DNA of 64,000 bases. Source: Blastomussa wellsi. Lineage: Eukaryota > Cnidaria > Anthozoa > Scleractinia > Plerogyridae. Location of the stretch: positions 13,515,749-13,579,748 of the forward strand of contig OX393566.1 of assembly GCA_947652115.1 (NCBI GenBank), given 5' to 3'. This document shows positions 48,489 to 54,609 of this stretch, in pieces. Numbering within the stretch: the first letter of the stretch is position 1; each line of letters opens with the position of its first letter. A program made the translations under genes and the position numbers. The notes beneath the pieces are model-generated. The model was given only the letters and a program-made list of their open reading frames with translations. It was not told the origin of the DNA and searched no databases.

Positions 48489-48635
48489 ATGCCCCGAGAG
48501 GAAGAAGGAGCTCGAGGAGAAGTTCAGATACCACAGGAAATTCCAGGACCAGCTGTTCCTTTGCCGGGAAATAACGCACCTGGACAACCGGCGGCACAGC
48601 AAGCACGTCAACTGACGGCCGAAGAGAAACTTGAG
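48489..48635 (+). CDS. Leader exon of the tyrosine-recombinase retroelement
   Basis: ATG at 48489 opens 49 codons: an acidic/basic start (MPREEEGARGEVQ), a Pro/Gly/Ala-rich low-complexity middle and QLTAEEKLE at the end. Codon phase at the end is 0. Two donors sit 6 bp apart, GAG/GTAAAT at 48636 and AAT/GTGAGT at 48642; the second fits the consensus better and would add two residues without changing phase. The frame is also open upstream to 48309, so a longer N-terminus is possible. It has no recognised domain and probably provides a common N-terminus for Gag, Pol and recombinase. Confidence 0.65.
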
Positions 48636-48997
48636 GTAAATGTGAGTCTTGTCTACTCGTTTCTATTTGCATGCGGTTTTGTATAATGTTTTCGGCGATA
48701 GTTCTACATAGACGTTTTCTTGTCCCGATTTGGTTCGCAGTGTGCTCAGAATTCGCGACGGATTTTGTGTTTCTCGTCGCACGTGGTCGGGTCTGTATTA
48801 CATAAAGACGCCTATCCCAGGGGCTCCCAGGGTTTGCTTTTGCTGGTTTTGTCCAACGTCCATGGCTGGTTCCTTCGTTCTCGTCGTTTTGGGGCTATTG
48901 GGTTCACGTTTTATAGCTATTTTGTACTGTTTGTGTTTTACCCTGTTATTGTAAAGTAAATTACATAATATACATAGCTTTGTTAGTTTGTGTGGCC

Positions 48998-49845
48998 AGT
49001 CATGGTATGATTCCTCAGCGAGTCGTCTGTTGATGATCATGACTGTGTCGAATTGTGAAATGTATGCAATCTGTGATTTGCATTTTGTCATGGCGTGATT
49101 CTTCAGCGAGTCGTCTGTTGATGATCATGACTGTGGAAATGTATGGCCAGTGAGGCAATCTGTGATTTGCCTTTTGTCATGGCGTGATTCTTCAGCGAGT
49201 CGTCTGTTGATGATCATGACTGTGGAAATGTATGGCCAGTGGGGCAATCTGTGATTTGCCTTTTGTCATGGCGTGATTCTTCAGCGAGTCGTCTGTTGAT
49301 GATCATGACTGTGGAAATGTATGGCCAGTGGGGCAATCTGTGATTTGCCTTGTCATGGCGTGATTCTTCAGCGAGTCGTCTGTTGATGATCATGACTGTG
49401 GAAATGTATGGCCAGTGAGGCAATCTGTGATTTGCCTTTTGCCATGGCGTGATTCTTTAGCGAGTCGTCTGTTGATGATCATGACTGTGGAAATGTTTGG
49501 CCAGTGAGGCAATCTGTGATTTGCCTTTGTCATGGCGTGATTCTTCAGCGAGTCGTCTGTTGATGATAATGACTGTGAAAATGTATGGCTAGTGAGGCAA
49601 TCTGTGATTTGCTTTTTGTCATGGCGTGATTCTTCAGCGAGTCGTCTGTTGATGATCATGACTGTGAAATGTATTTGCCTTTTGGTCATGGCGTGATTCT
49701 TCAGCGAGTCGTCTGTTGATGATCATGACTGTGAAATGTATTTGCCTTTTCGTCATGGCGGGATTCTTCAGCGAGTTGTCTGTTGATGATCATGATTATA
49801 AAATGTATTGGTTTTTTGTCATGGCGTGACTCTTCATAATTGATC
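48998..49845. repeat. VNTR of 87-89 bp units in the leader intron
   Basis: Units start GTCATGGCGTGATTCTTCAG and include CGAGTCGTCTGTTGATGATC. Starts fall near 48998, 49087, 49176, 49265, 49352, 49441, 49529, 49618, 49685, 49752 and 49818. The first seven or eight are 87-89 bp; the last three are 66-67 bp because a GGCCAGTGAGGCAATCTGTG-type segment is missing. The array fills most of the intron 48636-49889. Confidence 0.92.
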
Positions 49846-49889
49846 AGTTTTTTGAATAGAATTTTGACTCAGCCTATTGTTCTCTATAG

Positions 49890-53052: not shown

Positions 53053-53231
53053 AGTGTATCTTATGACTGGCGGGTAACATGCACGAACGATTAATGATTT
53101 TTGTCCCTAACTTGTAGAGTTAATCTTGCCCCGCTAATTTATATTTGGTTAACATTGTCCGGGCATTGTATACGTTGGGGAAATAACACTTAACATTTTG
53201 AATACACATTTGCTGTTTCTGCTTTTGTTAG

Positions 53232-54587
53232 GATTTACCCGTTGTTGCGAAGCTGTTTACTCCTTCTGTGAGATGTCCAAATTGCAGCCATGCCAATGAC
53301 TCTGATTTTCGCTTTTGCCAACTATGCGGATATAAAAGGAAAATCTTAAACAACAAAAGTGGTACGCCTTTGGCTGTGGATTTAAACGCTATTGATGATC
53401 GTCTACGACAATTAACCGTGTTTGATCAAGCAACTAGCTACTCTAAACAAAAAGACTCGCTTCAAAGGGAACTAGAAAATTTCCTTTCTTCCCTACCAGG
53501 CTCCATTACAGTTTCAACTGTAACACCACGCGATATTTGCCGTTTCTTGGTTTTCAAAGACAAGAACGGGAAAACCCAGGTTCATCGTAACGGGTGCCCT
53601 CATCTGGGAAAGAGAGGCACATTTGAGTGTGTTTGTCCATTTCGACTTTCCTACAAAACCGTAGACTCGTACATTGGAAAGCTGCGGGCGATCTCTCATG
53701 CTATTGGACGTGATGGGGAATGGGATAGACGCCTTGGTCTCGGAAACCCGGCTGCGGATAAGTCCGTTAAAGACTATCTTCGCTTAATTACGGCTGAGCA
53801 ACTACAAGCAAGAGTAACACCAAAACAAGCTTTACCATTTTTTGTGGACAAACTTGCACAGTTAGCTGACCATATTGGTAGAGCCCTGCAGTCTCCCGAC
53901 CTTATTCCAACACAGCGTTTTATTCTTGCAAGGGATCAGGCATATTTTAAGGCGGTGTTTTTTAGTGGCGATAGGCCGGGGGATATGGGCCAAGTGAAGG
54001 TACCAGAAATTCTGAGATTCCCAAACGATGATGGGTTTCTTTTCAACCACGTGTGGGGTAAAACCTTGAGGGACGGGGATAGTAACGTCTTTGGAATCAA
54101 ACGAAACCCACAAACAAAGATCTGCCCAGTTCAGGGAATCGAATATTATATGGCGATGGCACAGCAACTAAGGATCGATTTAACAAAGGGTTATCTTTTT
54201 CGCCCAACTACACCACAAGGGGGCATACTCGATGCACCGTTCAACTCGTCTGCAGCGGAAGCTCGTTTAAAGGGATACCTTAAGGAGATGGGGTCAGACG
54301 ATGGAGAAACCCTTCATGGCTTTAGAGCGGGATGCGCTATAACCCTGGCATTATCAGGAGCTGAGTTATCGGAAATCATGGATCACGTTGGGTGGACACG
54401 ACGACATACTGCCTTACATTACTTGCAATTGGCCAAGGTTCTTAATCCAGCGGGTGCCTCTGCTCGCTTATCGACCGTAGACTTTCCATTTGTAACGTCC
54501 GAGTGGAATGATGTCAATGATTTAAAACGTTTTGTCTGCGCTTTCCCTTCACCCACAACTGAGAAAAGGTCGTTTACGGGGAAGTGA
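53232..54587 (+). CDS. Tyrosine recombinase exon with N-terminal zinc ribbon
   Basis: Acceptor TTTTGTTAG/GAT at 53232, phase 0, 451 residues to TGA. No usable ATG lies near the start, which again points to splicing. It reads DLPVVAKLF, then a four-cysteine zinc-ribbon motif (CPNCSHANDSDFRFCQLCG), a core-binding domain with a second Cys/His cluster (HRNGCPHLGKRGTFECVCPF), and the catalytic domain: Arg in FSGDRPGDMGQV, His-x-x-Arg in LHGFRAGCA, His/Trp in DHVGWTRRH and Tyr in TALHYLQLAK. All catalytic residues of the family are visible. It probably integrates the element's circular DNA. Confidence 0.88.
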   Translation, partial: DLPVVAKLFTPSVRCPNCSHANDSDFRFCQLCGYKRKILNNKSGTPLAVDLNAIDDRLRQLTVFDQATSYSKQKDSLQRELENFLSSLPGSITVSTVTPRDICRFLVFKDKNGKTQVHRNGCPHLGKRGTFECVCPFRLSYKTVDSYIGKLRAISHAIGRDGEWDRRLGLGNPAADKSVKDYLRLITAEQLQARVTPKQALPFFVDKLAQLADHIGRALQSPDLIPTQRFILARDQAYFKAVFFSGDRPGDMGQVKVPEILRFPNDDGFLFNHVWGKTLRDGDSNVFGIKRNPQTKICPVQGIEYYMAMAQQLRIDLTKGYLFRPTTPQGGILDAPFNSSAAEARLKGYLKEMGSDDGETLHGFRAGCAITLALSGAELSEIMDHVGWTRRHTALHYLQLAKVLNPAGASARLSTVDFPFVTSEWNDVNDLKRFVCAFPSPTTEKRSFTGK

Positions 54588-54609
54588 AATATTATCTTAA
54601 ATAAATCAC

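Follow-up and report, generated by a model that had tools for sequence, protein, structure and literature searches.

Tyrosine-recombinase retrotransposons that carry an ALOG domain have been reported from Nematostella and Acropora as ALOG-domain DIRS1-type retroposons (Iyer and Aravind, 2012; PMC3537659). As described there, these elements combine a zinc ribbon-ALOG-catalytic recombinase with a knuckle-bearing Gag, a reverse transcriptase (RT)-RNase H and terminal direct repeats. All of these features are shared by an element that we analyzed at positions 48258-54821 of a 64,000-nucleotide (nt) stretch of Blastomussa wellsi DNA (assembly GCA_947652115.1, contig OX393566.1, positions 13,515,749 to 13,579,748 of the forward strand), hereafter called the window. 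It is a DIRS/PAT-like, ALOG-type tyrosine-recombinase retrotransposon, and comparison of its sequence with that of related families suggests that a single leader AUG very probably serves Gag, Pol and recombinase alike through splicing to three alternative acceptors. We view it as a variant of the known ALOG-DIRS kind (PMC3537659). The main text of that article contains no word starting with "intron" or "splic", and its authors inferred that animal copies were inactive, whereas 11 of the 60 Pol places listed here are full length and without stops.

Several other described systems share parts of this design. PAT-like DIRS elements have the same split direct repeats (A1...B1-A2-B2), a Gag zinc finger, RT-RNase H and a recombinase, and the retrieved text of their description mentions no spliced leader and holds 0 occurrences of "intron" (PMC4157794). 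In BARE1 (PMC3735527) and Arabidopsis EVD (PMC8892269), two long terminal repeat (LTR) elements with a spliced Gag mRNA, splicing is tied to the supply of Gag, as we propose here, but the unspliced RNA carries a Gag-Pol frame, whereas Gag and both enzymes of the present element would each need splicing and would share an N-terminal leader. In foamy virus, an LTR retrovirus, a dedicated singly spliced mRNA encodes Pol separately from Gag, which again resembles our proposal (PMC8003144). Intron-containing transposon genes of Ectocarpus have been curated with RNA-seq, in a passage that does not name DIRS elements (PMC12477816). The literature searched, which did not extend to Repbase or subscription papers, yielded no description of DIRS-type elements with a shared spliced leader, and word scans of the main texts of PMC3537659, PMC3266345, PMC9210276, PMC6681497, PMC4157794, PMC8547959, PMC5718144 and PMC5890265 returned no relevant mention.

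The comparison drew on at least 60 places with Pol relatives in the genome (1403 first-look candidates, 59 scored). We fetched 18 copies of the window family and representatives at 59, 58, 49, 47, 44 and 40% Pol identity to it. The 58% copy (L033/L034) was grouped with the 59% family and not counted separately, which leaves six families: the window family, L027 (59%), L028 (49%), L029 (47%), L030 (44%) and L035/L036 (40%). A leader with an ATG and a phase-0 donor was present in all six, with a length of 43-107 codons and an end at GAG/GT in five families and CAG/GT in one (the slash marks the predicted exon boundary). The leaders diverge greatly in sequence and length and appear rich in Pro, Gln, Ala or Ser: MPREEE...KLE/V in the window, MANVQY...GELE/V in L027, MADPQV...VSLE/V in L028, MAQVPR...VNLE/V in L029, MTEPER...VSLE/V in L030 and MSQTLQ...ATYQ/V in L035. 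At the other side of the predicted junctions, YAG (Y, pyrimidine) stands before all 18 exon starts of the six families (13 TAG, 5 CAG), with pyrimidines at 65-100% of positions -20 to -4. Seventeen of these 18 starts are in phase with the leader donor, including all six Pol and all six recombinase acceptors. The Pol acceptor of the 40% family is TAG in L035 and CAG in its sister copy L047, so that the YAG is kept and the stop is not, and eight of eight further Pol copies carry YAG at the predicted place.

The recombinase acceptor was evaluated with a rule taken from the window family and then applied to 24 loci, namely an in-frame AG exactly 14 codons before the first Cys of the zinc ribbon. 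The AG was found there at 22 of the 24 (21 of the 23 loci with a fully readable ribbon plus a 24th, L049, that is cut short); the set includes the window itself and many near-identical copies, and effectively five families follow the rule. Both exceptions belong to the 40% family; their in-frame CAGs lie upstream of the expected position, by one codon and by two. Recombinase frames of 451 amino acids (aa) in the window family begin with the match itself. Within this family AG was kept at each exon start in 19 of 19 loci per exon, and the leader end matched in 16 of 16. An ungapped site search of the 18 copies located the Gag and Pol sites in every copy and failed to find the recombinase site in 10 of them and the leader donor in 3; the recombinase acceptor counts given here rest on other searches. 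The initial annotation had read in the window a leader donor, three acceptors and a common phase, and aligned copies show that this arrangement recurs in five divergent families, the phase of Gag in the L028 family aside. Its proposal that three proteins are expressed by splicing from one leader gains support from this conservation of the predicted junctions across the six families.

We also searched for homologs in other species and inspected selected N-termini and sequences among the 360 listed (120 of 146 for Gag, 120 of 442 for the recombinase and 120 of 420 for Pol). Where the homolog frame extends upstream, a Gln (CAG) precedes the predicted exon start in 13 of 17 Gag cases, several of them near-identical to each other, and in 10 of 15 recombinase cases. 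The gene models P0129 (Oculina) and P0147 and P0226 (Porites) contain a segment that starts exactly at the recombinase acceptor, and a model from Paramuricea clavata (P0095) has a leader, MAEEPQ...QENLE/V, that ends in Leu-Glu-Val upstream of Gag. In viral contigs, 27 pattern matches yielded 0 relatives.

As a control for chance, we counted frames that open right after a TAG with a pyrimidine tract. Outside the element in the window, where many of the control frames fall in a satellite array, this applied to 0 of 85 frames of at least 100 aa and to 4 of 260 of at least 60 aa. Among the fetched copies, the same pattern was seen in 68 of 258 frames of at least 100 aa, most of them exon starts. 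Passes other than exon starts came from the upstream end of the Pol frame (50695 in the window), one overlapping frame of the L028 family and two frames in the flanks.

The features of the window copy are listed in Table 1. Direct reading confirmed the initial annotation of a 49-codon ATG exon that ends in phase 0 at donors 48636 (GAG/GTAAAT) and 48642 (AAT/GTGAGT); both members of the proposed tandem pair are thus present in phase 0 in the window, while the second is not conserved among families. Upstream, the leader frame stays open as far as 48207 and includes extra in-frame ATGs at 48309 and 48372, inside A1. Three downstream frames had been described as starting exactly at an acceptor in phase 0 and as having no convincing start codon. 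This holds for Gag (49890) and recombinase (53232) but not for Pol, whose frame is open beyond its acceptor at 50788 back to 50695 and includes an in-frame ATG at 50716. The phase of Gag and recombinase is weak evidence alone, because the acceptor TAG is itself an in-frame stop and makes phase 0 automatic. The first internal Met falls at residue 97 in Gag, 146 in Pol and 252 in the recombinase, and proteins begun there would therefore lack conserved regions. In the window family the Pol frame is preceded by another, weaker AG at 50695, which we attribute to chance.

The motifs that had been called intact (zinc knuckle, YIDD, RNase H acidic residues, recombinase Arg/His-x-x-Arg/Tyr) were all found by eye. 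The Gag knuckle reads CX2CX4HX4C, and its Cys and His hardly vary across 36 sequences; its Pfam zf-CCHC match of 18.0 bits is under the cut-off of 20.8, and the Gag structure model was too uncertain for a structure search (predicted local distance difference test, pLDDT, 67). Pol has YIDD and the acidic residues of RNase H. The recombinase has R...HxxR...Y and matches ALOG (PF04852, E 7.7e-21) and Phage_integrase (PF00589, E 2e-6). Its ribbon cysteines (15, 18, 29 and 32) show little or no variation across 16 aligned sequences, with the Pfam ribbon models below their cut-offs.

Table 1. Features of the Blastomussa wellsi element, in window coordinates
Feature	Start	End	Strand	Details	Basis or remark
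Terminal repeat A1	48258	48431	+	174 bp	blastn of copies
20-nt stretch	48447	48466	+	reverse complement recurs between A2 and B2 of other copies	blastn of copies
Leader exon	48489	48635	+	49 codons, ATG-led, Pro/Gln-rich, ends Leu-Glu at GAG/GTAAAT	direct reading; design common to six families
Predicted intron, leader to Gag	48636	49889	+		contains tandem array
Tandem repeat array within the leader-Gag intron	48999	49836	+	89- and 67-bp units	
Gag exon	49890	50423	+	177 aa, CCHC knuckle; acceptor ...ctctatag/GCG	direct reading
In-frame ATG upstream of Pol acceptor	50716	50718	+		window family only
Pol exon	50788	53052	+	reverse transcriptase, RNase H, C-terminal domain; acceptor ...ccctcctcag/AAT	stop ends at 53052
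Recombinase exon	53232	54587	+	zinc ribbon, ALOG domain, tyrosine recombinase; acceptor ...tttgttag/GAT	Pfam
Terminal repeat B1	54751	54821	+	71 bp	blastn of copies; window copy stops here

The sequence is most simply read as one donor that serves three acceptors. Transcription would start in or near A1, where we place the putative promoter, and three 3' splice sites would compete for the single 5' splice site at the leader end. The leader would be joined in phase 0 to Gag, Pol or recombinase to give three one-gene mRNAs, whose proteins would share a Pro/Gln-rich N-terminus, and competition among the acceptors may set their ratio. The unspliced RNA, which would be necessary as the template for reverse transcription, reads from the leader ATG through only 65 codons to a stop at 48686. 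On this model the genomic RNA would therefore be no mRNA for Gag, RT or recombinase.

It has long been asked how retroelements share one RNA between its roles in translation and in reverse transcription. In most of them the genomic RNA carries Gag-Pol, which is expressed through frameshifts, read-through or polyproteins, and foamy virus Gag is made from unspliced RNA, unlike the arrangement proposed here. If our reading is true, a genomic RNA that is no mRNA would separate the two roles fully, and transposition would depend on intron retention. The reading predicts three junctions, a shared N-terminus and a nuclear genomic RNA, and it might account for frames without start codons in related elements. 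EVD RNA that retains its intron is mostly nuclear (PMC8892269), which offers a plausible parallel for the genomic RNA of this element.

Several observations weigh against a leader shared by all three proteins. The use of the junctions in RNA is something we infer from sequence features and conservation, and none of the inspected homolog proteins has the leader spliced onto an exon. The Gln test described above succeeded in only 1 of 7 Pol cases, the Pol N-terminus being too variable to align, and the gene models P0166, P0213 and P0263 connect Pol with positions internal to the recombinase. Leader donors, which score up to 8.5, are weak in L028 (4.5) and L030 (5.1). In the L028 family the acceptor of Gag has phase 1, alike in L028, L031 and L032, while those of Pol and recombinase have phase 0. 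For this Gag we considered a second donor 4 nt beyond that of the leader, but the only nearby GT that would restore the phase scores 0.0; the case stands as an exception and slightly lowers our confidence in the shared leader. Out-of-phase donor-like sites occur in Pol of L027 and of L029, in each case 97 nt ahead of the stop, and, with a strong score of 8.9, within the Gag of the 40% family (L035, position 2738).

Leader evolution and DNA copies add to these points. Five pairs gave 6 leader substitutions (2 synonymous and 4 nonsynonymous) among 1,050 sites, too few changes to detect selection, and the leader rate equals that of the intron (37 in 6,117 sites). Gaps in the same five pairs, in two of which L028 is counted, amount to 0 runs in the leader vs 18 in the intron, and copies of the window family show 1 leader variant, a synonymous one, in 147 sites. 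Spliced DNA copies of the window family were not found for any of the three junctions among 19 exon starts and 16 leader ends (0 joined); the recombinase junction query also gave 2 weak partial matches, and an exact pattern search for the leader-Gag junction gave 0. Their absence agrees with unspliced RNA as the template and, with 19 loci, says little.

Some further observations would fit a leader that is spliced to Gag only, with Pol and recombinase produced as fusions spliced from donors within Gag or Pol, from promoters and first exons of their own, or by initiation at an upstream ATG (50716, for example). The Oculina and Porites models (P0129, P0147, P0226) join Pol pieces to the recombinase acceptor. 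The in-frame ATG at 50716 is present in the window family, and L028 Pol has a Met at residue 4, at another place. Donor-like sites in phase also occur singly: Gag has them in L027 and L030, Pol in L027 and L029, and their places differ. However, the scan of five families (for L035, only Gag was scanned) showed no position near the Gag or Pol ends at which they share an in-phase donor, which leaves fused products without support. At least one copy of each of the five other families has TAG at the Pol acceptor, and an ATG at the place of 50716 is therefore excluded in those copies. The leader donor's phase at all six Pol and all six recombinase acceptors likewise argues against a leader restricted to Gag, and we consider this alternative unlikely.

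According to the initial annotation, other copies would contradict it if they had one continuous frame or if their Pol and recombinase began at an ATG. A continuous frame was present in none of the copies examined (a 2214-aa row of the Pol listing aside); a candidate of 2552 aa was rejected as an artefact of unread bases. Nearby in-frame ATGs of Pol do exist in the two families mentioned, but at different places.

It is considerably less probable that the element is an ordinary single-intron one, with a constitutive leader-Gag intron and with Pol and recombinase acceptors that are cryptic and rarely used. TAG acceptors, which make up 13 of the 18, are generally weaker than CAG and could be counted in its favor. 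By sequence, however, the Gag acceptors are no stronger than those of Pol and recombinase, these two proteins would be left without an efficient start, and such an element would differ from the favored one in proportions only. Least credible is an element without splicing, in which non-AUG or internal initiation on one RNA makes the proteins and the acceptor-like sequences reflect chance or decay: a near-cognate TTG is the second codon of the window Gag, and the junctions are predictions from sequence, but the AG stands at one fixed codon in 22 of 24 recombinase loci, the YAG position is kept while TAG and CAG alternate, and leaders with phase-0 donors occur in all six families.

The leader-Gag intron holds a tandem array in five of the six families (window, L027, L028, L029 and L030), with different-looking units of about 36-103 bp; the L035 intron has no array of that kind. 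RNA folding of these arrays gave no clear signal, with z from -0.3 to -2.6 for the sense strand and -0.6 to -4.7 for the other strand, and +1.5 to -2.6 for controls. Whether this is an old anthozoan ALOG-DIRS system, in which the full-length RNA would be purely genome, the three mRNAs would arise by acceptor choice and the intron array, confined to unspliced RNA, would mark that RNA for packaging or regulate splice choice, seems to us evenly balanced; the packaging or splicing role of the array is speculation. In L029 the repeat units (1659-2458) contain many splice-like words, including TTTCAG/GTGCC and TTAG/GTATGT, which are possible decoy sites.

The bounds of 48489-54605 given initially were too short, since blastn of copies showed that terminal repeats extend the element at both ends. 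Split direct repeats in the order A1...B1-A2-B2 (A, 174 bp; B, 71 bp) were present in 14 of 18 other fetched copies of the window family, and some fetched stretches may end too early to show the full plan. From left to right these copies have A1, B1, A2 and B2, and the short stretch between A2 and B2 contains the 20 nt of 48447-48466 in inverted form. The window copy has neither A2 nor B2 and ends after B1, and recombination between B1 and B2 would explain the loss. The left end was not found by blastn in L014, L016 and L022. Direct repeats of 81, 174 and 101 bp were found in L027, L029 and L030, respectively.

These repeats bear on classification. Other copies of the window family have the split direct repeats of PAT-like elements, and the inverted terminal repeats with an internal complementary region of strict DIRS1 elements were not found, the only inverted copy being that of the 20 nt. 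Of the features of ALOG-type DIRS elements, ALOG with a tyrosine recombinase, the zinc ribbon, RT-RNase H upstream and the Gag zinc knuckle are present. Split direct repeats are given for Ngaro too (PMC4157794). The repeat part of an Ngaro assignment, split direct repeats without a methyltransferase domain, applies here, and absence of the domain is not shown by the Pfam and structure matches. The inactive adenine-methylase-like domain that follows RNase H in ALOG-type elements, and the methyltransferase domain of PAT-like elements, had no Pfam match at E<=1; the fold of the Pol C-terminus was predicted with confidence, and structure matches cover residues 34-594 only, with none listed for the C-terminal domain, which excludes nothing.

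Other repeats occur around the element. A 29-bp satellite of some 517 copies fills about 15 kb at 3897-18831. Two sets of pieces that are 85-100% identical and about 8.4-8.5 kb apart lie on both sides of the element (46729-47104 and 55123-55603), with a frame that we take to be the GIY-YIG endonuclease of a Penelope-like element. A 21-bp tandem array with inverted copies follows at 55603-56106.

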